Positions 9,113 to 47,607 of a DNA stretch of 64,000 nucleotides are shown piece after piece. The DNA comes from Bradyrhizobium diazoefficiens (GTDB lineage: Bacteria > Pseudomonadota > Alphaproteobacteria > Rhizobiales > Xanthobacteraceae): contig NZ_CP067041.1 of NCBI RefSeq assembly GCF_016599855.1, positions 5,270,001-5,334,000 of the forward strand, given 5' to 3'. Positions within the stretch are counted from its first letter, which is position 1. Each line of letters begins with the position of its first letter. A model generated the notes under the pieces. It had not been told where the DNA came from and searched no databases. It worked only from the letters and a program-made list of their open reading frames with translations. The position numbers and the translations under genes were made by a program.

Positions 9113-9952
9113 ATGACCGAGACCGCAGAAGCAGTTCGTTCCACCCCCACCGCCGTCCCCGCGCCGCCGCTCCTCAGCGTGCGCAACATCGAGGTGGTCT
9201 ATGACGACGTCATCCTGGTGCTGCGCGGCCTCAGCCTGGATGTGCCCAAGGGGGCGATCGTGGCGCTGCTGGGCGCCAACGGCGCCGGCAAATCGACGAC
9301 GCTGAAGGCGATCTCGGGGCTGCTCAAGACCGAGGATGGCGAAGTCACGCGCGGCGAGATCCTGTTCGAGGGCGAGCGAATCAACGGCATCGATCCCGAC
9401 AAGATCGTTCGCCGCGGCATCTTCCAGGTGATGGAGGGCCGGCGCATCGTTGCCGACATGACGTCGCTGGAGAATCTCAAGCTCGGCGCCTTCACCCGCA
9501 GGGACCGCGAGGTCCATGCCGATCTCGACATGGTCTTCAACTATTTTCCGCGCCTGAAGGAGCGTACCGGCTTCGCCGGCTATCTCTCCGGCGGCGAGCA
9601 GCAGATGCTCGCGATCGGCCGCGCACTGATGGCGCGCCCGAAGATGATCCTGATGGACGAGCCGTCGATGGGCCTGTCGCCGCTGCTGGTGAAAGAGGTG
9701 TTCTCGATCATCCAGAAGATCAACCGCGATCTCGGCGTCACCATCCTGCTGGTCGAACAGAACGCGCGCGCCGCACTGTCGGTGGCAAGCCACGGCTACA
9801 TCATGGAGCAGGGCAAGGTCGTGCTCGACGGCACCGCCGACGAATTGCGCGACAACGAGGACGTCAAGGAATTCTACCTCGGCGGCGCCGGCGACCAGCG
9901 CAAGAGTTTCAAGAACCTCAAGAGCTTCAAGCGGCGCAAGCGGTGGCTCTAG
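9113..9952 (+). CDS. livF: Branched-chain-amino-acid-type ABC transporter ATP-binding protein (LivF-like)
   Basis: This 279-residue ATPase has Walker A GANGAGKSTT near residue 54. It has the LivF-specific segment IFQVMEGRRIVADMTSLENL, signature YLSGGEQQMLAIGRAL and Walker B MILMDEPSMGLSP. It pairs with LivG as the second ATPase of the importer. The C-terminus carries an extra basic tail (KSFKNLKSFKRRKRWL), unusual for LivF and perhaps read-through into former spacer. The stop codon shares the CTAG palindrome with the stop of the convergent epimerase gene. Confidence 0.9.
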   Translation: MTETAEAVRSTPTAVPAPPLLSVRNIEVVYDDVILVLRGLSLDVPKGAIVALLGANGAGKSTTLKAISGLLKTEDGEVTRGEILFEGERINGIDPDKIVRRGIFQVMEGRRIVADMTSLENLKLGAFTRRDREVHADLDMVFNYFPRLKERTGFAGYLSGGEQQMLAIGRALMARPKMILMDEPSMGLSPLLVKEVFSIIQKINRDLGVTILLVEQNARAALSVASHGYIMEQGKVVLDGTADELRDNEDVKEFYLGGAGDQRKSFKNLKSFKRRKRWL

Positions 9953-11106
9953 CCCTCCAGAACCTGCTCCGCTTCGGTGACTGCGCAGAGAACATGATAG
10001 AACGACGACGCAGGAATAGTGTCGATCAGCGATTTACCGTCGCTGTCGAACTGGTCGTACCAGCCGCCCCGCACGGGATGGCTGAGATAATGCCGTTCGA
10101 GCCGCACCAGCGCAGCGCGCGCTTCCTCGGCGGCCCCCGCCTCACCGGACTCCGCCTGCGCGATCCAGGCCTTCGCGATCTCGGTCTGCGGCCACAGCCG
10201 GCGCGTCGAACGGCGGACGTTGCCGGTGTCATCGCCCTCGTCGACAAGGCAGCCGGTCGCGGCGTCGCGATAGCGCAGCGCGGTCGCCAGCAACTCGGCA
10301 CGCCGCTGTCCGGTCGGACAGCCCGTGATGCGTTCAAACCCCTTCAGCAGCCAGACCCATTCCGCCTGGTGGCCGGCTTCGATACTGATCGGTTCGATCT
10401 TCGACCAGTCCTCCTCGAAGTACTCGCCGAGCGCACACGTCCGCTTGTCGTAGAGATTGGCGAGGAACAGCGCGAAGAACTCACCTGCGCGATTCTGGAA
10501 CGACAGATCATGGGTCGCGTCGAAACACGCGATCATCGCCTCGAACAGATGCATGTGCGGATTCTGCCGCCGCGGCAGCGACACCGGCAGGCTCTCATGC
10601 ACGCCGCCATGCGGCGACCGCAGATGGCCGTCGAGGAAAGCGAGCAGCGCGTCGATCTCGGTGCGGATTTGCGCGTCTTGGTCCAGCGCATACACGCTCG
10701 CCAGCGCAAACAGGATGAAGGCGTGGTCGTAGGCATCGCGCCGTGCGTCCAGCACCGCGCCCTCCGGCGTCAGCCGGTGCACATAGCCGGGCCGTCCGTC
10801 GGGAGCCTTCGCGCGTCCCAGCAAATGCTCGAGCCCCTTCAGCGCGATGGCGCGCCCTTCGGGATACCAGCCCATCTGCGCCGCCTTGGCGTAGCAATAG
10901 ATTTGCCGAGCCTGCACGAAGACGCGGCGCGGCGCAGCGGCATCCGCCGTTCCGTCGCGGTGCAGCCGGTCGATGAAGCCGCCCGCGGCGTGGTCCCAGC
11001 CGACGGTCGACCACAGCGGTATCGCGTCTTCGATCATGCGGCGCTTCAGGCGCGCGACGACGCCGGCCGCCTCCTCCGCCGGAATGATGATGCTCTCGTC
11101 CGCCAT
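9949..11106 (-). CDS. AGE-family sugar epimerase/isomerase
   Basis: The 385-residue protein belongs to the N-acylglucosamine 2-epimerase family, an (alpha/alpha)6 barrel. Family motifs seen are RVFVQARQIYCYA near residues 65-77, the HMHLFEAM helix with catalytic-type His near 175, EAGHQAEWVWLL near 247-258 and a terminal HPVRGGWYDQFD. It probably interconverts mannose-type and glucose- or fructose-type sugars, or is a sugar 2-epimerase; the substrate is not determinable. ATG 11106 is chosen because of GAGGA just upstream; a further 20 codons are open ahead of it. The tail overlaps livF by 4 bases, convergent. Confidence 0.78.
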   Translation of the reverse strand: MADESIIIPAEEAAGVVARLKRRMIEDAIPLWSTVGWDHAAGGFIDRLHRDGTADAAAPRRVFVQARQIYCYAKAAQMGWYPEGRAIALKGLEHLLGRAKAPDGRPGYVHRLTPEGAVLDARRDAYDHAFILFALASVYALDQDAQIRTEIDALLAFLDGHLRSPHGGVHESLPVSLPRRQNPHMHLFEAMIACFDATHDLSFQNRAGEFFALFLANLYDKRTCALGEYFEEDWSKIEPISIEAGHQAEWVWLLKGFERITGCPTGQRRAELLATALRYRDAATGCLVDEGDDTGNVRRSTRRLWPQTEIAKAWIAQAESGEAGAAEEARAALVRLERHYLSHPVRGGWYDQFDSDGKSLIDTIPASSFYHVLCAVTEAEQVLEG

Positions 11107-11192
11107 CGCGTCCTCGCTATGCCCCGCCAATGGCCGTCTGATACCCATGCGGGCGGCGGCGCGCAACGGATGCCAACCCGGAAAGATCTGCC

Positions 11193-25292: not shown

Positions 25293-26930
25293 TCAGCTCG
25301 ACTTCGATAGCCGGTAATTGCCGAGGTACAACACGTCCAGGCCCGAGCAGAAATACGTATGCAGCGCCTCCAGCGGCCCGTTGACCGTGGGCTGCTCATT
25401 GATGTTCAGGCTGGTGTTGATCAGAACCGGCAGCGAGGTCGCTTTCGCGAACTCTCCGATCAGGCGGCTATAGAGCGGATTGCTGTTCGCGTGCACGCTC
25501 TGGATCCGCGCGGTGTTGTCGACATGGACGACCGCCGGCATCGTATCGGCGACCTTCGCGTTGACCGGGAAGGTCACCACCATGAAGGGCGCGTCGAACG
25601 TGTCCTCGAAATACTCGCCCTGGCGTTCGTACAGCACCGAAGGGCAGAACGGGCGGAATTCCTCGCGATATTTGATCGTGAGGTTGATGCGGTCCTTCAT
25701 GCTGGCCTGGCGGGGGTCGGCCAAGATCGAGCGGTTGCCGAGCGCCCGCGGGCCATACTCCATGCGGCCCTGGAACCAGCCCACCGTCTTCTGCTCCGCC
25801 AGATCGGTGACGCAGCGCGACACCGGATCGTCGAGCAATTCGAAACGCGCACCGATCTTGTCCAGCGTCTCGCGGATCGTATCGTTGGAGTATTCAGGTC
25901 CCCAGTAAGCGTGCGTTAGGGGTGAGATCGTATGGCCGGCTTCCGCGCATTTCATCATCGCGGCGCCCAGCGCCACGCCGGCATCGTGCGGCACCGGCGG
26001 AACGTAGAGACGCTTCACGGACGGCTCGGCCGCGATTTCCATGTTCATCTTGCAGTTCAGTCCGACGCCGCCGGCGATGCAGACGTCGCCGCAACCAGTC
26101 TCGGCGATCGCGGACCGGATCACTTCCGTGGTGACGATCTCGAGCTGCTTCTGTCCGCTGGCCGCAATGTTGGTCATGCGCTGGTCGAGCGGCGCGCCGC
26201 GCAGGCGTCGCGGCCCAAGGATCTCCTCCATCTTGTGGGTGAAGATGCGCTCCTGCCGCGTCGAGAAATCGCTGGTGAAGATGTCCGCATCGCGCCGGCG
26301 CTTGTCGAGCTCGGGATCAAGCTCATAACTGATACCATTGGGGCGCAACAGCTTGGCGAACTTGTCAAGATATTCCGGGCTGCCATAGGAGGACAGGCCC
26401 ATGACCTTGTACTCGTCATTGGTCATCTGATAGCCGAGATACTGGGTCAGCATCCCGTAATAGAGCCCGAGGCTGTTGTGGCGGCCGAACCGCGTCAACA
26501 CGCGGAAATCGTTGCCGCGCGCGTGTGCGACGAGGCCGGCGCTGGAATCGCCCGAGAAGTCGAAACAGGCAACCGTCGCCTCCGAAAAGCCGGAGCCGTA
26601 GAACGAGCTCGCGGCGTGGCAGAGGTGATGGTCGTAGAGCTCGATCTTCGGGCTGTGCCCGAACTGGTACTTGAAATACTCGGTGAGGCGCTGCGCGTAG
26701 TTCGTGTAGGTCTTCAGCGGCGAGCAGATCCAGTCCACGTCGCGCATGGTGATGCCGGCCTGCTTGAGGCAGAATCCGATCGCGCCGCGGGGCAGCTCGC
26801 CACGCGCATGCTTGGCCAGCGTGAAGCGCTCCTCTTCGGCCGCCGCGATCAGCTCGCCATCGCGCAGCAACACTGCCGCGCCATCATGATGGCCGTGCTT
26901 GATCCCAGAGCTGATTCCGATCACGTACAT
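25293..26930 (-). CDS. NodU/CmcH-family O-carbamoyltransferase
   Basis: The protein has 545 residues. The N-terminal Kae1-like domain has GHHDGAAVLLRDG near 13-25 and AAEEERFTLAKH near 29-40, the conserved HHLCHAASSFYGSGF near 101, and CFDFSGDSSAG near 123. The C-terminal YrdC-like domain ends with RNRSILADPR, LINTSLNINEQP and the family's closing VLYLGNY. These enzymes transfer carbamoyl from carbamoyl phosphate through carbamoyl-AMP to a sugar hydroxyl, as in Nod-factor decoration. Here the context is a surface-glycan locus, so carbamoylation of an O-antigen or nonulosonate sugar is more likely than Nod factor. Confidence 0.9.
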   Translation of the reverse strand: MYVIGISSGIKHGHHDGAAVLLRDGELIAAAEEERFTLAKHARGELPRGAIGFCLKQAGITMRDVDWICSPLKTYTNYAQRLTEYFKYQFGHSPKIELYDHHLCHAASSFYGSGFSEATVACFDFSGDSSAGLVAHARGNDFRVLTRFGRHNSLGLYYGMLTQYLGYQMTNDEYKVMGLSSYGSPEYLDKFAKLLRPNGISYELDPELDKRRRDADIFTSDFSTRQERIFTHKMEEILGPRRLRGAPLDQRMTNIAASGQKQLEIVTTEVIRSAIAETGCGDVCIAGGVGLNCKMNMEIAAEPSVKRLYVPPVPHDAGVALGAAMMKCAEAGHTISPLTHAYWGPEYSNDTIRETLDKIGARFELLDDPVSRCVTDLAEQKTVGWFQGRMEYGPRALGNRSILADPRQASMKDRINLTIKYREEFRPFCPSVLYERQGEYFEDTFDAPFMVVTFPVNAKVADTMPAVVHVDNTARIQSVHANSNPLYSRLIGEFAKATSLPVLINTSLNINEQPTVNGPLEALHTYFCSGLDVLYLGNYRLSKSS

Positions 26931-29060: not shown

Positions 29061-29409
29061 GCGCGCCCCTCCAATAGGTGAAGCAAAAAAGTGAAGCAAT
29101 CAAGGGTTCCGCAACCCGGCATTGAGGTGCGAGCTGGTCCCACATCGCTCCATGACGGTCCAGAGGCGGCCTGCCGCTAGCACACAAGACGCACCTCCGC
29201 CACTGTCGGAAACCTTGCGTCACACGTCCCTCTGCCGTATCTAGCGACTCTCGATTAAGGCTGATCGAGCGGTTCGTTGCGGGGATAAGGGTTGGAAATA
29301 CTTCCGGTTTTTCGTCCGCCAACGGGCAGACGCGGCATTGGCGGATGAGCCATTTGACCATTGCCGAGCTCGCGAACCCTGCTGTCCCCAGCGATCCCTC
29401 CTGGCATGG
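29061..29409. other. Divergent intergenic region, 349 bp
   Basis: This lies between the leftward membrane-protein operon and the rightward nonulosonate operon. There is no supported gene. A loose TTGCGT (29215-29220) with 17-base spacing to TATCTA (29238-29243) is the best promoter-like match, but it is weak. The region appears somewhat AT-richer than its flanks. Promoters for both operons must lie here or nearby. Confidence 0.4.
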
Positions 29410-30114
29410 ATGAACGTTGATTCGATGAGTGCGTCGCATGGCAAGCAGAGTATTGCGGCACTGGTTCCGTTACGCGGGGGCTCGAAATCCATCCCCGGCA
29501 AGAACATCAAGCCGTTCTGCGGTCAGCCGCTTTGCGCATGGACGCTGAGGACCTTGCTCGATTGTGAGCTGATCTCACGCGTGTTCGTGTCGACCGACAG
29601 CGAAGAGATCGCCGATGTCGTCAGGTCAATCGACTCCCGGGTCCTCGTCCACCCGCGCCCCGCCCACCTGGCGACGGACAGCGCGACCACCGAGGAAGCG
29701 ATTTACGACCTGCTCGCCTCCTGGGACATAACGGAAAAATATCTCGTCACAGCCCAGGTCACGAGCCCGCAAACGACCCGGCACGACCTTGCGGAAGCCG
29801 TCTCCAATCTCGTTGCCAACGGCGCAGATTCGCTCGTCACTTGCGTCAGGACGCGGCGTTTCTTCTGGAATGACGACGGCACGCCGATCAACTACGATCC
29901 GGCGAAGCGTCCGCTGCGCCAGCAATGGAACGGCACGCTGATGGAGAACGGCGCATTCTACATTTCGACGGTAGATCGGCTGCGCGGCGGCAGCGCTCGC
30001 CTACACGGCAAAATCGCCGTCTACGAAATGGATGAGAGCGCGAGCATCGAGCTTGACGAACTCTCCGATTGGGAAATGCTCGAAGCCGCGTTCCGCAGGA
30101 ACATCGCAAGATGA
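29410..30114 (+). CDS. CMP-sugar synthetase (acylneuraminate cytidylyltransferase family)
   Basis: The 234-residue protein has the family motif VPLRGGSKSIPGKNIKPFCG near residues 19-37. It also has the conserved VSTDSEEIADVV and TAQVTSPQT segments. These enzymes couple a nonulosonic acid to CTP to give CMP-activated sugar. This is one of two in the window; the other (34662) sits in the Pse block. It overlaps the four-domain NeuB fusion by ATGA, so it very likely activates that enzyme's product. The start is uncertain: ATG 29410 is taken by family alignment, and ATG 29425 is an alternative. The ribosome site is poor. Confidence 0.82.
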   Translation: MNVDSMSASHGKQSIAALVPLRGGSKSIPGKNIKPFCGQPLCAWTLRTLLDCELISRVFVSTDSEEIADVVRSIDSRVLVHPRPAHLATDSATTEEAIYDLLASWDITEKYLVTAQVTSPQTTRHDLAEAVSNLVANGADSLVTCVRTRRFFWNDDGTPINYDPAKRPLRQQWNGTLMENGAFYISTVDRLRGGSARLHGKIAVYEMDESASIELDELSDWEMLEAAFRRNIAR

Positions 30115-32363
30115 TCATCGACAGAGATCTTCACAGCTACCTGGTGCATGAAGATGCCTCCATCCAGGAGGCGGCGAGCAAGGTCGCGGCCAACCGGCGC
30201 GAGATCGTGTTCTGTGTCGACGGCAGCGGCCGGCTGCTCGGTAGCCTGTCGAACGGCGACATCATCCGCTGGATCGGCGCAGGCGCTGCATCCGGCGTGC
30301 AGGCCGCGGTCGGCGACCTCTGCAACCGACGCGTCCGCAGCGCCGTGGCCGGCGACCGCGAGACGGCCAATCGCCTGCTGCGAGAAGTGCTCTACGTTCC
30401 GCTACTAGACGCCGAGCGCCACGTCATCGGCGTCGCCCGCAACCGGCATCCCGGCGAAGGCATCAGGATTGGCGACCGCACCGTCGCTGAAGAAAACCCG
30501 AGTTTCCTGATCGCGGAGATCGGCAACAACCACAATGGCAGCCCGGAGGCCGCCTTCGCCCTGATCAAAGCTGCAGCGGAAGCAGGTGCCGATGCCGCCA
30601 AATTCCAGATGCGTGACATGTCCGGCCTCTATGGCAAGCGGACGAAGGGCCAGAGCGCGGATCTCGGCACCGAATACGTCCTTGACCTGCTCGATCGCTT
30701 CCAACTCAGCGACGAGGACCTCTATCGCTGCTTCGACTATTCGGCCTCGCTGGGCATGGAGCCGCTCTGCACCGCATTCGACGTCAACAGCGCGGACAAA
30801 TGCCGCGCCTATGGATTGAAGGCAATCAAGACCGCCTCTGCGGACCTGACCAATCACGAGTTGCTCCGGCACATCGTCGACCAGAGAATCCCGATCATCT
30901 GCTCGACCGGCATGTCGACCGAAGACGAGATCCGCGAGACGGTGAAGCTGCTCCAGACGTCGGGCGCGGAGTACGTCATGCTCCACTGCAACTCGACCTA
31001 TCCGGCCCCGTTCCGCGACATCAACCTGAAATACATGCTGCGCCTGCAGGAGCTGTGCGAGAGCGTGGTTGGATATTCCGGCCACGAGCGCGACGTCTTC
31101 GTGTCGGTCGCAGCGGTCGCGATGGGCGGGCGCCTGATCGAGAAGCACTTCACGCTATCGCGCGACCAGGAAGGCAACGACCACAAGGTCAGCCTGCTGC
31201 CGCATGAATTCAAGCGCATGGTCGAAGGCGTGCGCCAGGTCGAGGATTCCCTCGGCAACGCCCTGCCCCGCATCCTCAGCCAGGGCGAGAAGGCCAACCG
31301 CATCAGCCTCGGCAAATCGATCTTCGCCGTCGAGACCATCGAAGCCGGCGCCACGATCACGCGGGAGATGATCGAGATCCGCAGCCCGGGCCAGGGCCTG
31401 TCGCCGAACCGCATCGACGAAGTGATCGGACGGAAGGCGCCCCGCACCATCCCGGCCCAGACGCCGCTGTATCCATCGGACATCTCGGAACTCGGTGAGC
31501 TAACCGCCGGCGGACCAATCCATTTCAGACGCCCCTGGGGCGTCCCGGTGCGGCATCGCGACGCCGACAAGCTGATCACGGCGATCAATCCGGATTTCGT
31601 CGAGTTTCACCTCAGCTATCGCGACCTCGGCATCAGCGATTCCGACTTCCTTGCCGATAGTTATCCGTGCGGCCTGATCGTGCACGCGCCGGAGCTGTTC
31701 GAGGGCGACCACGTGCTCGATCTGACGATACCGGACGAGAATTATCGCACGCGCTCGATCGCGGAAATGAAGCGCGTCATCGCCAAGACCAAGGCGCTGG
31801 CGCAGCGTTTTCGCAACGACGGCCCTGTCGGCATCATCTGCAATGTCGGCGGCTTCTCGTCCACGCGCTTCCTGACCGCCGAGGAACGGGCGGTCCGCGA
31901 GGCCCATTTGCGCACCAGCCTGCGCGAACTCGCCGATCCCCGAATCGAGCTCTGGCCGCAGACCATGCCGCCCTATCCCTGGCATTTCGGCGGCCAGCGC
32001 TATCATAACCTTTTCGTCTCCAGCGACGACATCGCGCGGAGCTGCCGCGAGCTCGGGATGCGCATCTGCTTCGACACCTCGCATTCCCAGCTCGCTTGCA
32101 CCGAGAACAGCTGGTCGTTCGACGAGTTCATGGAAGCGATCGGCTCGTTCGTGGCCCATGTCCACATGGCCGACGCCCGCGGCGTCGATGGCGAGGGCCT
32201 CCAGATCGGCGAAGGCGAGATCGATTTCGGCAACGTGTTCCGGGTGCTCAACAGGCAGGCGCCGCAGGCCTCGTTCATCCCGGAAATCTGGCAGGGACAC
32301 GAGAATGACGGCGAAGGGTTTCGCATCGCGCTCCAGCGCCTGTCGAGCTTCGAGGACCGGTGA
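30111..32363 (+). CDS. Four-domain nonulosonate synthase fusion: CBS-NeuB-SAF-TIM barrel
   Basis: The product has 750 residues, about twice the usual NeuB length. Residues 1-125 resemble the paired CBS module linked to nucleotidyltransferases in legionaminate pathways. Residues 130-395 are a NeuB condensing domain (AEIGNNHNGS, STGMSTEDEI, YPAPFRDINL, GYSGHE, EKHFTL), which joins phosphoenolpyruvate to an N-acyl hexosamine. Residues 400-460 are a SAF/antifreeze-like domain (PGQGLSP). Residues 470-750 resemble an AP-endonuclease-2/sugar-isomerase TIM barrel, with FDTSHSQ and HVHMADARG metal-ligand-like motifs. It starts by ATGA overlap with the CMP-synthetase. The CBS and TIM domains are unusual additions; the barrel may epimerise or isomerise a precursor. 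Confidence 0.85.
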   Translation: MIIDRDLHSYLVHEDASIQEAASKVAANRREIVFCVDGSGRLLGSLSNGDIIRWIGAGAASGVQAAVGDLCNRRVRSAVAGDRETANRLLREVLYVPLLDAERHVIGVARNRHPGEGIRIGDRTVAEENPSFLIAEIGNNHNGSPEAAFALIKAAAEAGADAAKFQMRDMSGLYGKRTKGQSADLGTEYVLDLLDRFQLSDEDLYRCFDYSASLGMEPLCTAFDVNSADKCRAYGLKAIKTASADLTNHELLRHIVDQRIPIICSTGMSTEDEIRETVKLLQTSGAEYVMLHCNSTYPAPFRDINLKYMLRLQELCESVVGYSGHERDVFVSVAAVAMGGRLIEKHFTLSRDQEGNDHKVSLLPHEFKRMVEGVRQVEDSLGNALPRILSQGEKANRISLGKSIFAVETIEAGATITREMIEIRSPGQGLSPNRIDEVIGRKAPRTIPAQTPLYPSDISELGELTAGGPIHFRRPWGVPVRHRDADKLITAINPDFVEFHLSYRDLGISDSDFLADSYPCGLIVHAPELFEGDHVLDLTIPDENYRTRSIAEMKRVIAKTKALAQRFRNDGPVGIICNVGGFSSTRFLTAEERAVREAHLRTSLRELADPRIELWPQTMPPYPWHFGGQRYHNLFVSSDDIARSCRELGMRICFDTSHSQLACTENSWSFDEFMEAIGSFVAHVHMADARGVDGEGLQIGEGEIDFGNVFRVLNRQAPQASFIPEIWQGHENDGEGFRIALQRLSSFEDR

Positions 32364-32479: not shown

Positions 32480-34661
<2,182 letters not shown>

Positions 34662-34665
<4 letters not shown>

Positions 34666-35360
34666 AGATCGCAGTTATCCCGGCGCGCGGCGGCAGCAAG
34701 CGCATCCCGCGCAAGAACATCCGTCCGTTCTGCGGCAAGCCCATCATCGCCTATTCGATTGAAGCCGCGCAGGCGAGCGGCCTGTTCGAGGAGATCATCG
34801 TCTCCACCGAGGACGAAGAGATCGCAGAAGTGGCCTGCCAGTTCGGCGCGACGGCGCCCTTCGTTCGTCCGAAGGAGATTGCCGACGACCACACCGGGAC
34901 GAACGCCGTGGTCAAGCACGCCATCGCCTGGTTCGCCGAACGCGGCGACGACGTCAGCCACGCCTGCTGCATCTACGCCACCGCGCCGTTGATCCAGTCG
35001 CGCTTCCTGCGCGAAGCTCATGATACCTTCATCGGCTCGGATGCGGCCTTCGCCTTTTCCGTGACGAGCTATGCGTTTCCGATCCAGCGCGCCCTTCGCC
35101 TTGACCCAGCCAGTCGCGTCGATCCCTTTCATCCCGAGCACCGCATGACGCGTTCGCAGGATCTCGAGCCGGCCTATCACGACGCAGGCCAATTCTACTG
35201 GGGCACCGCCGCGGCATTTCTGGGCGACGCGCCGCTGTTCTCGGCGCAATCGATTGGCATCGTGTTGCCACGCAAATATGTGCAGGACATCGACACGCTC
35301 GAGGACTGGGAGCAGGCTGAATATATGTTCCGCGCGATCAGCCGCGACCAGGTCGCGTAG
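34662..35360 (+). CDS. pseF: CMP-pseudaminic acid synthetase, PseF
   Basis: The 232-residue cytidylyltransferase begins KIAVIPARGGSKRIPRKNIRPFCG, the CMP-sugar synthetase signature, followed by VSTEDEEIAEVA and ATAPLIQS. It starts on GTG 34662 overlapping the pseC stop (GTGA); there is no ATG near the true start. PseF activates pseudaminic acid with CTP for transfer. Neighbours pseB and pseC, and PseI elsewhere in the locus, support the Pse assignment over neuraminate. It is the second cytidylyltransferase in the window. Confidence 0.9.
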
Positions 35361-35590: not shown

Positions 35591-36814
35591 TCATGGCAGC
35601 GCGCCAAATGTGATGTTTGAGACCTGAGGACAATCGGTTGCTGCGGCCTTTAGCAGCGGACGAAGGAACGTCGCCAGATCACCCCCACCGTACAAGTGCC
35701 CCGGCAACCCGGCAGCAAGCGCCGCCTCGACATCCCGGCCACTGTCGCCGACGAGCAGGCTTCCTTCCATCCGGACGGGCCAGGCCTTCATGCAATCAAG
35801 GATCATTCCCGGCGCGGGCTTGCGCCGGTCGCTGGCGCGCCGATATGCCTCTACCGTGCCGTCCTCGTGATAGGGACAATATTGGTAGTCCTCGACATGC
35901 GCGCCGATTGCCGCGAGCTCGCCGGCCATCCAGTTATGCAGTCGGTGGACATCGTCAATACCGTAGTAGCCGCGCGCGACTCCCGACTGATTGGTGACGA
36001 CGAAGGTGTAGTAGCCGAGATCGTTACAGAGCTTGATGGCCTCGCGCGCACCCGGCATCCATTCGAAGTCGTCGATCTTGTAGACATAGGCCTTGTCGAC
36101 GTTGAGAACGCCGTCGCGGTCGAAAAACACCGCCGGGCGCCGCAGTTTGTCGGGCAATTCGGACCGGGCGCGCGCGAGATCAGCGGGATCGCGTATATCG
36201 ACGAAGAAGCCGTCGTACTTCCTGGTCGCGAGCCGGCCCGCTTCCAAGAGCTGCGGCAAGACCTGCCGCTCGAGCGAGCACCGGACCTCGCTGACGTCAC
36301 CGATGATCCTGCTGTGAACGCTATAGATGCCGCTATCGGCCGGCTCGCCCGGCCCCGTCGCCATCAGGATATCCATCGGGGACTGCTGAGCCTGTGCAGC
36401 GGCGGCGAAGTCGAGCAGATTGATATCGAAGAACGTGGAGCCGTTCAGAAGCAGGAAGCGAGCCTCCAATCGCGCCAAGACGTGCTTCAATGCGCCGGCG
36501 CTGCCACAACGCGGGGGTGCCTCCGCCACGGATAGATTTGCACCGCGCCAACGCCGCCCATGATAGTCATTGGCGATAGCCTCGGCACCGCGGCCAGCGA
36601 GCAGAAGGATGTTCTTGATGGTCGTATAGCGCGACAATTCGTCGAGCAAATAGTCGAGAAACGGCCGACCGCCGACGTCCAGCAACGGCGCCGGGATCGG
36701 GCGCGCCAGCTCGCCAGGCGCGGCCTCCCCGGCGCCGACCAGAATGACGGCCTGGCTCCATTCCATCCATTCTGGAGCATTGCGCGCCCGCCGCGCTACC
36801 TCGCAATCCGGCAT
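35591..36814 (-). CDS. Fusion of degenerate sugar nucleotidyltransferase and HAD phosphatase (GmhB/HisB type)
   Basis: The 407-residue protein has two domains. Residues 20-215 look like a sugar-1-phosphate nucleotidyltransferase. The usual GGxGTR signature reads VGAGEAAPG, and the conserved PKP lysine is Ala (PAP, residues 41-43), so the domain may be inactive. Residues 225-395 are a HAD phosphatase with nucleophile motif FFDRDGVLN, VTNQSG, RKPAPGM and VGDSGRD, plus a partial GmhB-like C-P-Y-H zinc site lacking the later CxC. It begins with ATG 36814; a TTG 9 codons upstream is an alternative. Likely roles are heptose- or nonulosonate-phosphate dephosphorylation. Confidence 0.75.
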   Translation of the reverse strand: MPDCEVARRARNAPEWMEWSQAVILVGAGEAAPGELARPIPAPLLDVGGRPFLDYLLDELSRYTTIKNILLLAGRGAEAIANDYHGRRWRGANLSVAEAPPRCGSAGALKHVLARLEARFLLLNGSTFFDINLLDFAAAAQAQQSPMDILMATGPGEPADSGIYSVHSRIIGDVSEVRCSLERQVLPQLLEAGRLATRKYDGFFVDIRDPADLARARSELPDKLRRPAVFFDRDGVLNVDKAYVYKIDDFEWMPGAREAIKLCNDLGYYTFVVTNQSGVARGYYGIDDVHRLHNWMAGELAAIGAHVEDYQYCPYHEDGTVEAYRRASDRRKPAPGMILDCMKAWPVRMEGSLLVGDSGRDVEAALAAGLPGHLYGGGDLATFLRPLLKAAATDCPQVSNITFGALP

Positions 36815-36860
36815 CGTCTCGCCCCCGCGCAAGCTCGGCAACCACAGATCCCCTTATCAC

Positions 36861-41766: not shown

Positions 41767-43164
41767 TCAATCCGCCTCCGCCAGCTGCAGGCTGGCACCG
41801 CTGATCATGCGATGCGCCAGCGCACCCGTTGCTGGCCGGACCGCGAAACGGCGCCCGTCGCCCGAGGCTGTGTCCAGGCGCTGCATGATCGCGTTCACGG
41901 CTTCGATCCCGAACGCCTTGCCTGTACGGCGACGCTCGTTCTCGGCTGAACCATAGCGCCGGCGCAACGCCGAGCTCACCCTGTAGCCGAGGGTGCGGCG
42001 AACCACATCGACCGCGACGCCGCGAAGCGACGGCGCAGGCACCGCGTCGGCTTTCGAGCCGCTACGTTCGGGAGCCGCGAGGGTCGCGAATATGGCGTCG
42101 CAGACCCGCGCGGAGCTCGCGCCGTCGATGGCGGTATAGAGATCGCTCATGATCTCGCCGCGAAACGCCGCGGTCTCCGGCGGCGGCGGCGGCAGCCGTG
42201 CCTCGAGCCCCAGGCCGACCAGCTCGATCATCTTGTCCGCATTCATCGCGGCACGGCTGACGCGTGTGGCCGCATCGAGCCGAAGCGCGGGCGTGTTGAA
42301 CCACTCCATGCTGAGCGGCTCCACGTTGAGCATCGCGGCCTCGATGGCGGTGGAGCAGTTCTGGTGCACGAGCATGCGCGCACCACTCAGCCATTCCAGC
42401 GAGGTGCCGCTCTGGATCACCCGCGCATTCGGCAGCGCGGCCAGCGCGTCATAGGAGGAGATATTCTCGAACGGGTGCGGCCGCAGCACGAACTGCACGC
42501 CGGAAAAATGCTTCGCGAGCGTGATCGCCGTCTCCAGCGTGTTGCGATAGGCGTAGCGGCCGTCGGCGATGAACTGCCGCGCAAACTCACGGGAAAAGCC
42601 CGCCCGCACCATCGTCGTCTCTTCGTCGGCCGAGCTGTTCGAGAAGCGCGGATTGACCGTCGGAAAATTGGTGTTGATCAAGACATAGCCTGCCCCGACG
42701 GATGGATTTGGCAATGCGGCGCGCCAGGGTGGCGCGCAGAAATCGTAACGCGGGCAGCCCGTGGCGTGAACGATATCCGCCGGGACGGTACCATGCCGAA
42801 GGAAAGCCGCATGCTGGGACTGTCCCCAGACGCAATAGAGATCGATCAGCGCGCCGCAACCAGCGCTCTTGACCATGTCCGCGAACTGATCGGCATTCTT
42901 GCCGGCGATGCCTTCGGTGTCGAGAACGGCAACCAGAATCCCCGCACGCTTATAGGCCTTGATCAGGTCGACGTTGTTGGGCCGGGTGTAATTCACCAGC
43001 ACCATGTCCGGCCGCAGTGCGAGCACGTCGAAGCCCTGCTCGTACATCGGCACCAGCGTGGCCCTCGCGCCACGCGTCGCCAACTCGCGCGCGAGCAGGG
43101 TCAGCCCCTCGAGGTCGCGAAGCGGATTATCGACGATCAGGCAGACATGCGGCTGGTCAGCCAC
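41767..43164 (-). CDS. Surface carbohydrate biosynthesis protein (glycosyltransferase-like)
   Basis: The 465-residue protein starts VCLIVDNPLRDLEGLTLLARELA, a Rossmann-like opening. It has a mid region reminiscent of GT-B enzymes: VLRPHPFENISSYDAL near 225-240 and LVHQNCSTAIEAAMLNVEP near 265-285, where the donor site usually lies. Similar genes recur in nonulosonate loci and are annotated as surface carbohydrate biosynthesis. It overlaps PseI by 8 bases and is followed by the Wzx flippase, consistent with transferring a nonulosonate to a lipid-linked acceptor. Confidence 0.7.
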   Translation of the reverse strand: MADQPHVCLIVDNPLRDLEGLTLLARELATRGARATLVPMYEQGFDVLALRPDMVLVNYTRPNNVDLIKAYKRAGILVAVLDTEGIAGKNADQFADMVKSAGCGALIDLYCVWGQSQHAAFLRHGTVPADIVHATGCPRYDFCAPPWRAALPNPSVGAGYVLINTNFPTVNPRFSNSSADEETTMVRAGFSREFARQFIADGRYAYRNTLETAITLAKHFSGVQFVLRPHPFENISSYDALAALPNARVIQSGTSLEWLSGARMLVHQNCSTAIEAAMLNVEPLSMEWFNTPALRLDAATRVSRAAMNADKMIELVGLGLEARLPPPPPETAAFRGEIMSDLYTAIDGASSARVCDAIFATLAAPERSGSKADAVPAPSLRGVAVDVVRRTLGYRVSSALRRRYGSAENERRRTGKAFGIEAVNAIMQRLDTASGDGRRFAVRPATGALAHRMISGASLQLAEAD

Positions 43165-44269
43165 GTGCGCTCCTCGCCGTCGTGGCCGGCTGCGCGGGCG
43201 CCGCTTCTCCGGCGGGCGACAGCAGGTCCCAGCTCATCGGCGTGCCGCGGCGAACCGCCCGGCCGACGCGCTTGCCCATCAAGGTCTCGAGATATTTCGG
43301 CGGCAGGCCGAGGCCGGGGCGAATTGTGCGCAGATTCTGCTCGGTCAGCACGTCACCTGCCGCGAGATCCTCGGTCACATAGAGCGAGCGGCGGAAGATC
43401 AGGGAGTCGCGCTCCTTCTCCATCAAACCATAGCGGACCTCGCCAAGCGCCATCCAGGCCCGCTCGGTCTCGACCACCAGGGCCGCCATCTCGGCCGGCT
43501 CCATCGAGAACGTCGAATCGACGCCGCCGTCGGCACGCGCGAGCGTAAAGTGCTTCTCGATCACGCTTGCGCCGAGCGCCACGCTCGCCACCGAAGCACC
43601 GATCCCGAACGTGTGGTCGGACAGGCCGACCTCGCAATCGAACAGCGCGCGCAGGTGCGGAATCGTCATGAGGTTGGTATCCGAAGGCGTCGCCGGATAG
43701 GTGCTCGTGCACTTCAGCAGCACGAGCTGCTGGCAGCCCGCCGCGCGCGCCGCACGGACCGTCTCGTCGAGATCGGCAACACTTGCCATGCCGGTGGAAA
43801 TGATCATCGGCTTGCCGGTCGCAGCAACCTTGCGAATGAGCGGCAGATCGGTGTTCTCGAAGGACGCGATCTTGTAGCAGGGAACGTCCAGGCCTTCGAG
43901 GAAATCGACGGCAGTTGCGTCGAACGGCGTCGAAAACGGGATCATGCCAAGCGACCGGGCGCGCTCGAAGATCGGCGCGTGCCATTCCCACGGTGTGTAG
44001 GCCTCCTGATAGAGCTTGTGCAGCGACCGCCCCTTCCAGAGGCTGTTGGGATCGCCGATGAAGAACTCGTCACTGGCAAGGTCGAGCGTCATCGTGTCGG
44101 CGGTATAGGTCTGGAGCTTGAGCGCATGTGCACCCGTCTTCGCTGCGGCGTCGACAATCGCGAGGGCGCGTTCCAGCGACTGGTTATGGTTGCCGGACAT
44201 CTCGGCGATCACGAACGGCCGATGCGAACGGCCGATCGGGCGTCCGCCAATTGAGATGGTTGTGCTCAT
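43157..44269 (-). CDS. pseI: Pseudaminic acid synthase, PseI
   Basis: The 370-residue NeuB-family enzyme carries the PseI-type EMSGNHNQSLERAL near residues 23-36, where canonical NeuB has EIGINHNG. It has STGMASVADLDE near 158, STYPATPSDTNLMTI near 190 and EKHFTLARADGGVDS near 240, then a SAF domain (RPGLGLPPK). It condenses the 6-deoxy-2,4-diamino-altropyranose product of PseG with phosphoenolpyruvate. GAGGAG lies before its ATG. It is distinct from the four-domain synthase at 30111. Confidence 0.92.
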   Translation of the reverse strand: MSTTISIGGRPIGRSHRPFVIAEMSGNHNQSLERALAIVDAAAKTGAHALKLQTYTADTMTLDLASDEFFIGDPNSLWKGRSLHKLYQEAYTPWEWHAPIFERARSLGMIPFSTPFDATAVDFLEGLDVPCYKIASFENTDLPLIRKVAATGKPMIISTGMASVADLDETVRAARAAGCQQLVLLKCTSTYPATPSDTNLMTIPHLRALFDCEVGLSDHTFGIGASVASVALGASVIEKHFTLARADGGVDSTFSMEPAEMAALVVETERAWMALGEVRYGLMEKERDSLIFRRSLYVTEDLAAGDVLTEQNLRTIRPGLGLPPKYLETLMGKRVGRAVRRGTPMSWDLLSPAGEAAPAQPATTARSARG

Positions 44270-44362
44270 CGGTCACTCCTCAGTCTGTCGCGGCTTCCCG
44301 GAACCGCCGGCCGCAGATCGCGCAGATTGTCGAATCCGGGACATTGCTGCGGAATCGTGTCT

Positions 44363-45034
44363 CTAGCGAACAAGGCTTCTCAGCGTCATAAAACCTTCTG
44401 CGGCAACGAAGCCAACGCTGGCACCGCGCAAGGTAGCAAGAGCGCGCAACGCAGCATAGGACCTGGAATGGGGGAAGTCCCGCATTTCCTGATCGTAGGC
44501 CTTCAGCGCTTCGATCTTTCGCTCAATCGTGTTTTCGATGGATACGAAACGGTCCGGCCGGAAGGCCTCGCCGATCGCGGAGCTTGCCCATTCGGTCGAC
44601 GAGGCGACCTCGAAGGCATAAATCGCCTTGTAGGTGCTCGCCGGCATTGGCCGCAATGCCGTCAAGACCGCCTGATGGACGATGCGATGATCCAGATTGA
44701 GATCGCCACCGTGATGCGTATAGATGATCGTCGGCTGGATTCTTGCAATCAGTGCCTCGAGCATCTGCACCACCGGCAGAAAGCCGGCGGTGTCCAGCCT
44801 TTGGTCGGGGAAGTCGAAAAACGTCGGCGTGCTTGCTCCGAGTATGTTGCAGGCCTTTTCAGCCGACGCATGGCGGACAGCAAGCGCCGAGTTGTCGCCG
44901 CGCCCGGACACCCCATCGGCAAGGAACACCACGTCGACGGAGTCGCCACTGTCGGCGTGCCTGGCCATCGTTCCGCCGCAGCCGAGCGCCTCGTCATCGG
45001 CGTGCGCAGCGACAATCAACACCCTTTCGGTCAC
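44363..45034 (-). CDS. PIG-L family deacetylase
   Basis: The 223-residue zinc enzyme has AAHADDEALGCGG near residues 8-21, a variant of the usual AHPDDE, and THHGGDLNLDHR near 107-118, which supplies the remaining zinc ligands. The family removes acetyl from N-acetylglucosamine-type sugars. It lies between PseI and two formyltransferase-fold genes with a 4-base overlap to the first of them. A deacetylate-then-reacylate route for the amino sugar is possible. Confidence 0.85.
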   Translation of the reverse strand: MTERVLIVAAHADDEALGCGGTMARHADSGDSVDVVFLADGVSGRGDNSALAVRHASAEKACNILGASTPTFFDFPDQRLDTAGFLPVVQMLEALIARIQPTIIYTHHGGDLNLDHRIVHQAVLTALRPMPASTYKAIYAFEVASSTEWASSAIGEAFRPDRFVSIENTIERKIEALKAYDQEMRDFPHSRSYAALRALATLRGASVGFVAAEGFMTLRSLVR

Positions 45035-45723
45035 GGCTCGATCTTCCTGAATGTCGCGGTTGCACGCAGCGCGCCATCCTCGAATTCGGCATCGCTGAAT
45101 TCGATCCGCGTATTTTCGATCTCGATGAATGATTTGGGATATTCCGGTGCATCGAGCATCCGGATATGATCATAGAGCCTGGCGAGCGTCCTGCTGCCGT
45201 CCAGCCTGGATTGCTCCGGCTTCCGCCGCTTGAAAGTCACGACTTCGCCGACCTGGGGAACCGGTGTCGGCCATTGTCCGATCATGTCCCCGATCATGGA
45301 CGCAGTCAGTTCGGCCATGCGGATGAAGATGTCGTGCGCCGACCCCGCGAGCGACAGATCGCGCTGGAGATAGATATCGCCATCGTCGAAACCGGCGTTC
45401 ATCCGGAACGCCGTAAGCTTGGTCCGTTCGAAACCCTGCTCGATCATGTTCTGGACCGGGCTGCCGCCCTTTCCGTATGGAAGCGGCGCCGCATGAAACG
45501 CCACGCACTCAAATGCGGACACGATTTGGTCGGGGACCTTCCAGTTCCAGTGCGGGAAGAAGATGGCTTTGGGCCCGATCGCCTGCAGCTTCTCGAGCGT
45601 GAGATCCGACTGTTCTGAAATGAGGTGCCAATGTCCGGGAAGATGCCGGATCGTCGTCTCGAACTGCAGGACGTTCCAGGGCCTGACCGTGGCAACGCAA
45701 TAGGCCGGAGAAGCCTCACTCAT
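45031..45723 (-). CDS. Formyltransferase-fold protein, Asn-less (first of two)
   Basis: The 230-residue protein has the GART/FMT fold, with catalytic-type His77 (AFHAAPLPYGKGGSP) and Asp113 (FDDGDIY). The Asn of the classic N-x-H motif is Ala75, so activity may differ. Folate-dependent N-formylation of an amino sugar is the usual role. The start is ATG 45723, overlapping the preceding stop by 8 bases; an upstream open frame is spurious. It overlaps the PIG-L gene by 4 bases. Confidence 0.72.
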   Translation of the reverse strand: MSEASPAYCVATVRPWNVLQFETTIRHLPGHWHLISEQSDLTLEKLQAIGPKAIFFPHWNWKVPDQIVSAFECVAFHAAPLPYGKGGSPVQNMIEQGFERTKLTAFRMNAGFDDGDIYLQRDLSLAGSAHDIFIRMAELTASMIGDMIGQWPTPVPQVGEVVTFKRRKPEQSRLDGSRTLARLYDHIRMLDAPEYPKSFIEIENTRIEFSDAEFEDGALRATATFRKIEP

Positions 45724-46369
45724 CGGATACCTCGGAAGCCTTCGAAATCCGTACATGATACCGGTGACCGCGGAAATCGAAGAAGGCGGGAAAACGATCA
45801 GGGTCAGCCACGCGCAGGAGATCGAACTGCGCGGAAATGGATTGAGCGGGATCGAGCCGGGAATCCTCGGAGGTCCGGCGCCGGTAATAGCTGGGTTGAC
45901 GATCGTCCTGCGGCTGCGGCTCCACGCGTCCGAAATTCGCGACCGCATGATCCATCAGCTCGACCCAGACCGAAAAAAGCCTGTGATTGATCTCGTCGCA
46001 GAGCTCGTGCCCTTCGAGTACGACAGGCCGCTTCGCCCAGATCGCTCCCGAATCGACCTTATCGTCGGCCTCCAGCAACGACACGACGAGCTTGTTTCTG
46101 CCTTCGAGTATCTGCCAGTTCTGCGGCGACCAGCCGCGTCCCTCGGGCAGGTCACTGGAGTGAATGACGAGCGTGGCGCCATAACGCGCGCGATCCTGCC
46201 GCGAAATGATCTCGTGGCAGGAGATCAGGAACAAGATGTCGCCGCCGCTCAGTTCCGCTTTGGTCTGCACCAGTTCCACGCTGTGCGCTGCCGAAGCCGC
46301 ATTGACCCAGCTCTCCAGATATGGGTAGACCGGGTGCGAGGCGCTGGAACAGAGGACGGAAATCTTCAT
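45716..46369 (-). CDS. Formyltransferase-fold protein, Asn-less (second of two)
   Basis: The 217-residue protein resembles its neighbour: VIHSSDLPEGRGWSP with His70, and VDSGAIW with Asp106, but Val68 in the place of the classic Asn. It may be a paralogue or partner of the neighbouring product; neither has a recognisable acetyltransferase fold. ATG 46369 is chosen; GACGGA lies upstream. It is followed by the other formyltransferase-fold gene and preceded, after 131 bp, by pseG. Confidence 0.7.
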   Translation of the reverse strand: MKISVLCSSASHPVYPYLESWVNAASAAHSVELVQTKAELSGGDILFLISCHEIISRQDRARYGATLVIHSSDLPEGRGWSPQNWQILEGRNKLVVSLLEADDKVDSGAIWAKRPVVLEGHELCDEINHRLFSVWVELMDHAVANFGRVEPQPQDDRQPSYYRRRTSEDSRLDPAQSISAQFDLLRVADPDRFPAFFDFRGHRYHVRISKASEVSDE

Positions 46370-46500
46370 ATTTGTCCGTCGCTTACGACAGTGAACCGGT
46401 CGGCGGGCAGGTGCAACTTCAGGGCAGGCCTTAGCACAAAAAATGCCGCGCAACAGCAAATAACACCCGAACTTCGCAGCCTTTGCACCCCGTGCAGCCG

Positions 46501-47607
46501 CTATGAGGAGGGCAGCGAGTGCATCCTGGCGACGACCTGATCGGTGCCAGCCCCGTCAACCAGCGCGATCGCGACCTCGGCCATTGCGCGGACCTGCGCA
46601 GGACTTGCAATCAGGGCTGCGAGCGCGGCTGCGATCTGCTCCACCGTGACGCTTGCGCTGTCGCCGAGATGATCGAGCGCACCGACAGCAGCAAGTGCCG
46701 TCAACGCTCCCACCTGATTCACCGCGATATGCACGGCGATCGTCGGTAGTCCGAGACAGCAACGCTCCCAGCTCATCACGCCGCCCGCGCCGATCGAAAG
46801 GTCGGCACGCCTCATCAACTCGGCAATATTGTTCGCACCACGGTACAGCTCGGTGTTCGCCATCCTCGCGCAGAGGAGTTCGACCGAAGCTGCGTTCGGA
46901 TTGGTGAGGCCGACGACGACGTCCACGGCGGGCTGCGGCACCGAAAGGCTTCCGATCGCTTTCAGCGCCTTTGCGGTTTCATTGGTCGGATCGGACCCGC
47001 CGAAGCAGATCAGGATACGGTCGATCCGGCCATCGCGTTGTGCGAGCAAGCGGCGCTGAGCGGCGAACTCCGGCCGCAGCAGCGCGTAGCTCGGCCCGAG
47101 CAACTGCACGCAGGCAGCAGAAACGCGATCGCGATAGCGCGTCTCCATCCCAAGAACGAGATTCTGGTCGAGCAGCATCTCGCAATCGTGGTCACGGTCG
47201 GCGAGGTCATCGATGGCGAGGATGCGCAAGCCCTCGCGCCGGCAGGCACGCTCCCATCGGGCATCGAGCGCGTAGTGGTCGACGATGAGCCATTCGGCCG
47301 AACCGATACTAACCAGGGCGCTGCAAGTCTGTTCGGCGTCCTGTTGCCGTGTCGTCGGCAGCCAATGCGCGTGCTGGAGGGCGTCGTTGCCGGTCTCGGA
47401 GGCCGGCCGGACCGGGTCAGGCAAAAGCCGCACCGCATGCCCCGCCTTTTCCACCATTTGCACAAGGCCCGCCGCATGGCTGCGCATGAGGAAGCACGAT
47501 CTCATCCCGCCGCCCGCGAGCGCGTTCGCAAGCGTGAGGCACCGCGTCAGGTGACCCAGTCCCATCTCGACCGATGCGTCGACGCGAAAGACGGCCGTTT
47601 TATCCAT
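46501..47607 (-). CDS. pseG: UDP-2,4-diacetamido-2,4,6-trideoxy-beta-L-altropyranose hydrolase, PseG
   Basis: The 368-residue GT-B-like hydrolase has the catalytic GLGHLTRC near residues 16-23, VDHYALDARWE near 110 and the UDP-site-like segment GAGGVMSWERCCLGLP near 270-285. It removes UDP from the diacetamido sugar of the Pse pathway. Pathway order (PseB, PseC, a PseH acyltransferase, PseG, PseI, PseF) would need an N-acyltransferase before it; none is recognisable here. It is divergent from the capsule-transferase gene at 47792. Confidence 0.88.
   Translation of the reverse strand: MDKTAVFRVDASVEMGLGHLTRCLTLANALAGGGMRSCFLMRSHAAGLVQMVEKAGHAVRLLPDPVRPASETGNDALQHAHWLPTTRQQDAEQTCSALVSIGSAEWLIVDHYALDARWERACRREGLRILAIDDLADRDHDCEMLLDQNLVLGMETRYRDRVSAACVQLLGPSYALLRPEFAAQRRLLAQRDGRIDRILICFGGSDPTNETAKALKAIGSLSVPQPAVDVVVGLTNPNAASVELLCARMANTELYRGANNIAELMRRADLSIGAGGVMSWERCCLGLPTIAVHIAVNQVGALTALAAVGALDHLGDSASVTVEQIAAALAALIASPAQVRAMAEVAIALVDGAGTDQVVARMHSLPSS

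Follow-up and report, generated by a model that had tools for sequence, protein, structure and literature searches.

The window analysed here, a 64,000-nucleotide stretch of Bradyrhizobium diazoefficiens (contig NZ_CP067041.1, positions 5,270,001 to 5,334,000), encodes a 750-residue nonulosonate synthase in which the NeuB catalytic and SAF domains are fused to an N-terminal CBS module and a C-terminal barrel of the sugar isomerase type. We give an even chance to the interpretation that this fusion is a synthase of the 3-deoxy-D-glycero-D-galacto-nonulosonic acid (KDN) type, which carries its own sugar-supply barrel and a CBS sensor. Support is fairly good for a NeuB part of the Kdn type. For the barrel, an isomerase that supplies mannose is the likeliest guess, and the CBS module would act as the sensor. 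The gene, its domains and the overlapping gene upstream, which encodes a cytidine monophosphate (CMP)-sugar synthetase, are located as follows:

29410..30114, + strand: CMP-sugar (acylneuraminate-type) cytidylyltransferase gene (PF02348, 95.6 bits)
30111..32363, + strand: four-domain nonulosonate synthase, 750 residues (open frame, Pfam, AlphaFold2)
30111..30440, + strand: CBS module, residues about 1-110 (borderline Pfam CBS; 50/59 members match)
30501..31259, + strand: NeuB catalytic domain, residues about 131-383 (PF03102; matches to NeuB 1xuu and PseI 8h2c)
31317..31484, + strand: SAF domain, residues 403-458 (Pfam), which holds Ser425 (31383-31385)
31524..32345, + strand: xylose-isomerase-like TIM (triosephosphate isomerase) barrel, residues about 472-745 (PF01261, 80 bits; fold matches)
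31959, 32073, 32163 and 32283, + strand: candidate metal site in the barrel, formed by Gln617, Asp655, His685 and Glu725, respectively (invariant in 59/59 members; strand ends in the model)

The frame is open from ATG to stop and specifies a single intact protein. Pfam bore out the four domains, and their order of CBS-NeuB-SAF-AP_endonuc_2 barrel, that had been proposed in a first-pass annotation of this DNA. Matches were obtained to the NeuB domain (PF03102; residues 151-383, E 1.9e-73, 247.3 bits against a cut-off of 22.1), SAF (residues 403-458, E 1.3e-9, 38.9 bits against a cut-off of 21) and AP_endonuc_2 (PF01261; residues 495-743, E 2.8e-22, 80 bits against a cut-off of 31.1), and that to CBS is borderline in the window protein (residues 12-55, E 5.4e-5, 23.9 bits against a cut-off of 24). 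With both PF03102 and SAF significant, the protein classifies as a NeuB-type nonulosonate synthase by its domains. Of the segment sizes put forward earlier, that of the barrel (about 280 residues) holds, but the CBS front spans about 115 rather than 130 residues, and the usual NeuB length of about 350 residues already includes SAF. The AlphaFold2 model has a mean predicted local distance difference test score (pLDDT) of 89.4 and a predicted template modelling score (pTM) of 0.72 for the full chain, and a pLDDT of 92.4 and a pTM of 0.91 for the isolated barrel. The ATG of the fusion at 30111 and the stop codon of the CMP-sugar synthetase gene overlap as ATGA, which suggests translational coupling of the two genes. 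The cytidylyltransferase start is an in-frame ATG picked by eye (the frame can also be read from a TTG at 29338), and its product scores 104.2 bits on the PseF model, below the cut-off of 205.7. A scan for promoters and terminators gave no more signals than were found in shuffled sequence.

An annotation artefact of adjacent genes, which had been named as an outcome that would overturn the proposal, can be ruled out, as the fusion recurs at 52 loci and in 59/59 aligned members across several phyla. The aligned set consists of 59 proteins picked by hand from protein-search and genome-scan matches, plus two three-domain proteins. NeuB and AP_endonuc_2 are joined in all 59 members, SAF is found in 57 and CBS in 50 (E<=0.001; window protein included), while at least 95 residues precede NeuB in 56/59. 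In the protein search 6963 homologues were scored, among them stand-alone NeuB. The best of these is 98% identical over the full length, and NeuB and AP_endonuc_2 occur together in the 120 matches listed. The 52 loci were located in a genome scan by patterns derived from the window protein. Their titles include Bradyrhizobium, Rhizobium, Oricola, Erythrobacter, Sphingopyxis, Hydrocarboniphaga, Comamonas, Synechococcus, Cyanobium, Prochlorococcus, Nocardioides, Tessaracoccus, Flavobacteriales, Nitrospirales, Kiritimatiellia and Peregrinibacteria, with the closest named relatives in Bradyrhizobium (92-95% identity). Among 369 gammaproteobacterial genomes, five match at E<=1e-60, four as fusions by length (centre included) and one as a stand-alone NeuB. 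A search with the barrel only gave 689 matches, of which the 120 listed look largely like fusion fragments on short contigs, and it is thus uninformative on stand-alone relatives of the barrel. A full-length fusion is also found on the 1.9-Mb plasmid pT173e of Ensifer canadensis (L089), the only plasmid record of 102 whose match spans at least 80% of the query. One contig of Tessaracoccus massiliensis carries two oppositely oriented fusion loci with equal surrounding frame lengths (L042 and L044), which would reflect either duplication with inversion or an artefact of assembly.

The synthase part of the window protein aligns with NeuB (1xuu) and PseI (8h2c). It shares the NeuB-SAF layout and the catalytic and metal residues of Neisseria meningitidis NeuB (1xuu), with ten catalytic or ligand residues identical in 12/12 fusions compared. 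Unlike the fusion, the meningococcal enzyme lacks both CBS and barrel, and has an arginine, Arg314, where the window protein has Ser425. In the first comparison this column held Ser in ten, Thr in one and Ala in one of the twelve fusions against Arg in 9/9 stand-alone enzymes, and in the larger sets Ser in 56 and Gly in three of the 59 fusions against Arg in 30/30 stand-alone controls. The column is secure, since the wild-type, R314A and R314K structures differ there in the alignment. In meningococcal NeuB, Arg314 positions the N-acetyl group of N-acetylmannosamine (ManNAc) and the R314A variant is inactive; mannose is not accepted by this enzyme, and the human enzyme converts mannose-6-phosphate to phosphorylated KDN (PMC6795526). 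The loss of Arg314 from an otherwise conserved site suggests that the substrate of the fused clade lacks an N-acetyl group. The fusion also scores below the cut-offs of both the NnaB (TIGR03569; 289.1 bits, cut-off 399.65) and PseI (TIGR03586; 222.5 bits, cut-off 340.25) equivalogs. An E134-to-Asp switch, found in 11/12 fusions, was rejected as a marker of the fusion because 5/30 controls share the change.

In the proposed mechanism, the C-terminal barrel would act as a metal-dependent aldose-ketose isomerase and make a free aldose, most likely D-mannose from D-fructose, which the NeuB/SAF part would condense with phosphoenolpyruvate (PEP) into KDN or a closely related nonulosonate without an N-acyl group. 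The product of the overlapping gene would activate this nonulosonate as a CMP sugar for a surface glycan, and a nucleotide or this CMP sugar may be the ligand sensed by the CBS module. The activity and substrate assigned to the barrel are inferred, as are any channelling and the role of the CBS module. A bolder version is advanced tentatively and is rather doubtful: that a KDN pathway is contained in one polypeptide, where the barrel passes ketose-derived mannose to the PEP synthase without NeuC, kinase or phosphatase and the CBS module gates the process, the whole forming a two-gene cassette with the CMP-synthetase in many phyla, including marine picocyanobacteria.

The nearest solved structures to the barrel, ranked first among the fold matches, are ketose 3-epimerases, and the possibility that the C-terminal part would fail to match an isomerase fold did not materialise. 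The predicted metal-ligand motifs are likewise seen as metal-type residues conserved among the aligned members, with the strand-end residues invariant in 59/59. The ketose 3-epimerases 3wqo, 5h1w and UlaE share the AP_endonuc_2 barrel fold with the fusion, while the barrel of the latter differs in its Gln for the strand-5 Glu, its own conserved PPxPWxxGGQ loop and the attached synthase. In ketose 3-epimerases, strands 5 and 8 each carry a glutamate that binds metal and acts in catalysis. The barrel retains Glu725 on strand 8 but has Gln617 on strand 5, each in 59/59 aligned members (the divergent L083 has Glu at the latter position), and two-glutamate 3-epimerase chemistry is thus less likely. 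Epimerisation or isomerisation of the sugar precursor or product had been suggested for the barrel. Isomerisation of the precursor is plausible, if unproven, while epimerisation of the product is less likely because C3 of a nonulosonate, which adjoins the keto group, is a CH2.

The same non-N-acylated synthase may instead be joined to a barrel with another task, be it the supply of a different aldose (the product then being an octulosonate or some nonulosonate besides KDN), modification of the product, or a structural or regulatory function. The substrate is not given by the fold alone, the strand-5 Glu is replaced in the main clade, though not in L083, and the locus neighbours indicate a family spanning many host glycans, so that this alternative, while unlikely, retains some weight. 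The invariant strand-end residues are unlike those of a drifting structural part, however, and Serratia marcescens made KDN with a protein of such description (PMC9000132). Alternatively, and also unlikely, PEP and mannose-6-phosphate would give KDN-9-phosphate, with the barrel as the phosphatase that frees KDN. Endonuclease IV has a ligand set for three zinc ions. Such an endonuclease-like three-metal site looks incomplete in the barrel (a by-eye mapping of ligand positions), and the first rank of the ketose epimerases among the fold matches also argues against a phosphatase.

Among proteins with solved structures, the CBS front weakly matches several with CBS modules, including an arabinose 5-phosphate isomerase (4o9k, E 0.021). 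In the 3-deoxy-D-manno-octulosonic acid (Kdo) pathway, the CBS-bearing ketose-aldose isomerase KdsD feeds the PEP-condensing KdsA, followed by CMP activation. The set of CBS module, ketose-aldose isomerase, PEP-condensing synthase and CMP activation proposed for the fusion would be analogous, although KdsD and KdsA are separate proteins, the isomerase is of the unrelated SIS fold and the sugars are phosphorylated. A CBS sensor in the fusion would thus have a counterpart in this CBS-bearing Kdo isomerase. A search of open-licence papers for binding of CMP-Kdo to a CBS domain found nothing.

In the tree of NeuB-SAF regions (33 fusions, comprising 30 of the 59 aligned members and three divergent ones, and 39 stand-alone NeuB/PseI; midpoint root), a branch supported at 100/99 separates all fusions from the stand-alone enzymes. 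A three-domain Bradyrhizobium form (L062) falls outside the four-domain clade (97/98), as do the divergent three-domain L083 and L084, the last on a long branch and with Ala at the Arg314 column. On this midpoint-rooted topology, the barrel probably joined the synthase first and the CBS front later. The three-domain form was found in 9/59 other genomes scanned, accompanied at a distance of 1.1-2.0 kb by a separate frame that encodes CBS. A matching CBS module is carried on a GHMP sugar kinase in genomes of the same genus; the separate frame of L055 encodes CBS plus GHMP kinase, and the kinase of that of L091 resembles HddA. The same-genus loci L091 (7920-15159) and L092 (6145-11789) hold an expanded form of the cassette in the equivalent position, encoding a CBS-GHMP kinase, NeuB-SAF-barrel, CMP-synthetase, short-chain dehydrogenase/reductase (SDR) and second AP_endonuc_2 protein. 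The L091 cluster immediately precedes PseB, PseC and PseF, as does the window fusion, and adds a second SDR before them. In L084 (450-3351; a gammaproteobacterial sample) the three-domain synthase lies beside GDP-mannose-dehydratase-family and DHDPS-family genes.

The sole near-constant neighbour of the fusion is the CMP-synthetase, present within 5 kb in 29 of the 31 loci (of 52) with at least 5 kb on both sides, and both exceptions lie on one Tessaracoccus contig; short flanks removed 21/52 loci from the 5-kb count and 12/52 from the 1.5-kb count. Within 5 kb in these 31 loci, NeuC was found once (Sphingopyxis), DegT in four and a PseB-like dehydratase in three (all Bradyrhizobium), and AGE and GHMP kinase in none. 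NeuC lies within 1.5 kb of 0/40 fusions, compared to 18/30 stand-alone controls (p 3.7e-9), these being the loci of best matches to Arg-type NeuB, which lean to true NeuB and of which a few have short flanks. The CMP-synthetase lies within 1.5 kb of 23/40 fusions and 4/30 controls, a contrast left unused because the queries fit the fusion clade better. No match to PF02350 (NeuC/WecB family) was found in the genome of the window (one contig, 100% complete), while 11/14 control genomes match. Weighing against the argument from this absence, 30 of the other 41 fusion genomes checked (for 41/52 loci) have a PF02350 match, 28 of them over the cut-off, and the neighbourhood is thus a stronger argument than genome-wide absence. 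In Synechococcus/Cyanobium loci (L012, L016, L021, L026, L052 and others) up to three tandem paralogues lie upstream of the fusion, that of L016 being a DUF6716 putative glycosyltransferase, and sulfotransferase-type genes lie downstream.

That the fusion is an ordinary N-acetylneuraminic acid (Neu5Ac) synthase, fed ManNAc by an AGE-type or other epimerase encoded elsewhere in the genome, appears very improbable. Automatic database names call the family proteins N-acetylneuraminate synthase, low Neu5Ac was seen in Serratia (PMC9000132), and the window holds an AGE-family gene (9949-11166), which is far below the AGE equivalog cut-offs and could be a source of mannose or ManNAc. However, the arginine that places the N-acetyl group is missing in 59/59 members and the NnaB score is below its cut-off. 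Furthermore, in 14 genomes checked (that of the window and 13 without PF02350 over the cut-off), AGE was found in seven and NanE over the cut-off in two, and six, many of the genomes being drafts, lack PF02350 over the cut-off, AGE and NanE.

The fusion itself is partly in print, in Leptospira (2012) and Serratia (2022). The variable capsule region of S. marcescens KL1 and KL2 begins with neuA and neuB, and the NeuB has an extra COG1082 sugar phosphate isomerase/epimerase domain (PMC9000132). Deletion of neuB lowered sialic acid about 4-fold and abolished the capsule, with both restored by complementation, and the wild-type polysaccharide had a KDN to Neu5Ac ratio of about 20:1, while a mutant lacking the variable region had neither sugar (PMC9000132). 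From the 2241 bp of the cloned neuB insert in that study, 9 of them upstream, we calculate a gene of about 743 codons, which is as long as the four-domain form. The NeuB of strain UMH9 (KL1; Anderson et al. 2022, PMC9000132) thus resembles the window fusion in its NeuB and COG1082 domains and neuA partner; it differs in host and capsule, and the likeness is one of domain annotation, CBS not being mentioned in the available text. Its sequence was not recovered in the scan of 369 gammaproteobacterial genomes. As to the earlier suggestion of a distinct nonulosonate, the evidence favours a non-N-acylated one, most simply KDN, a known sugar that occurs in S. marcescens with such a neuB (PMC9000132). 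The Leptospira interrogans protein (YP_002104 / NP_711794) is a fused nonulosonic acid synthase, distant from other synthases, and is likened to the window fusion by its described endonuclease-like C-terminal domain (PMC3438082). Its authors read this as a Neu5Ac phosphatase domain, and the available text does not mention CBS. In Streptomyces, SCO4881 belongs to SCO4873-4882, a cluster for teichulosonic acid, a KDN polymer (PMC13011467, PMC11481543, PMC4991794, PMC2267785). No Streptomyces occurs among the best 120 matches listed for a Nocardioides query. Searches of the open-licence literature that paired the fusion with KDN, CBS, isomerase, cyanobacteria or Bradyrhizobium brought up PMC9000132 and PMC3438082 as the only papers recognised as relevant; the clade, the loss of the arginine, the near two-gene context and the transfer of CBS to a sugar kinase did not appear in the results.

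Further glycan genes occur in the window:

25293-26930, - strand: carbamoyltransferase of the NodU/CmcH type in the same glycan region (Pfam)
32486-35360, + strand: PseB, PseC and PseF genes (equivalog profile matches)
35591-36841, - strand: fusion of a nucleotidyltransferase-like part and a HAD (haloacid dehalogenase) phosphatase of the histidinol-phosphatase type (below most equivalog cut-offs)
43157-47607, - strand: PseI and PseG region (PseI 499.7 bits, cut-off 340.25; PseG 277.7 bits, cut-off 153.55)
44363-45034, - strand: PIG-L deacetylase gene beside PseI
45031-45948, - strand: formyltransferase-like gene beside PseI

Membership of the fusion in this adjoining pseudaminic acid pathway, to which the PseB, PseC and PseF genes that follow it might point, is rejected as highly improbable, given the window's own PseI and PseG, the fusion's low PseI score, and 28/31 full-flank loci without a PseB-like gene within 5 kb. 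The deacetylase and formyltransferase-like genes by PseI hint that the pseudaminate made here may carry an unusual N-acyl, perhaps N-formyl, group. The product of 35591-36841 resembles HddC plus GmhB of heptose pathways.

The genome of the window appears able to make pseudaminate and a Kdn-type sugar side by side, two nonulosonates in one genome of a genus known for legume symbiosis. If the proposed reading is true, the database name N-acetylneuraminate synthase misdescribes a large family and masks a KDN pathway of wide occurrence, and the barrel is a candidate enzyme for feeding mannose directly to a sialic-acid-type synthase. Ser or Gly in place of Arg314, together with a fused barrel and a CMP-synthetase as lone partner, may then serve as a predictive mark for KDN producers. 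Should the one-polypeptide pathway hold, KDN would count among the common sugars of bacteria instead of the rare ones.
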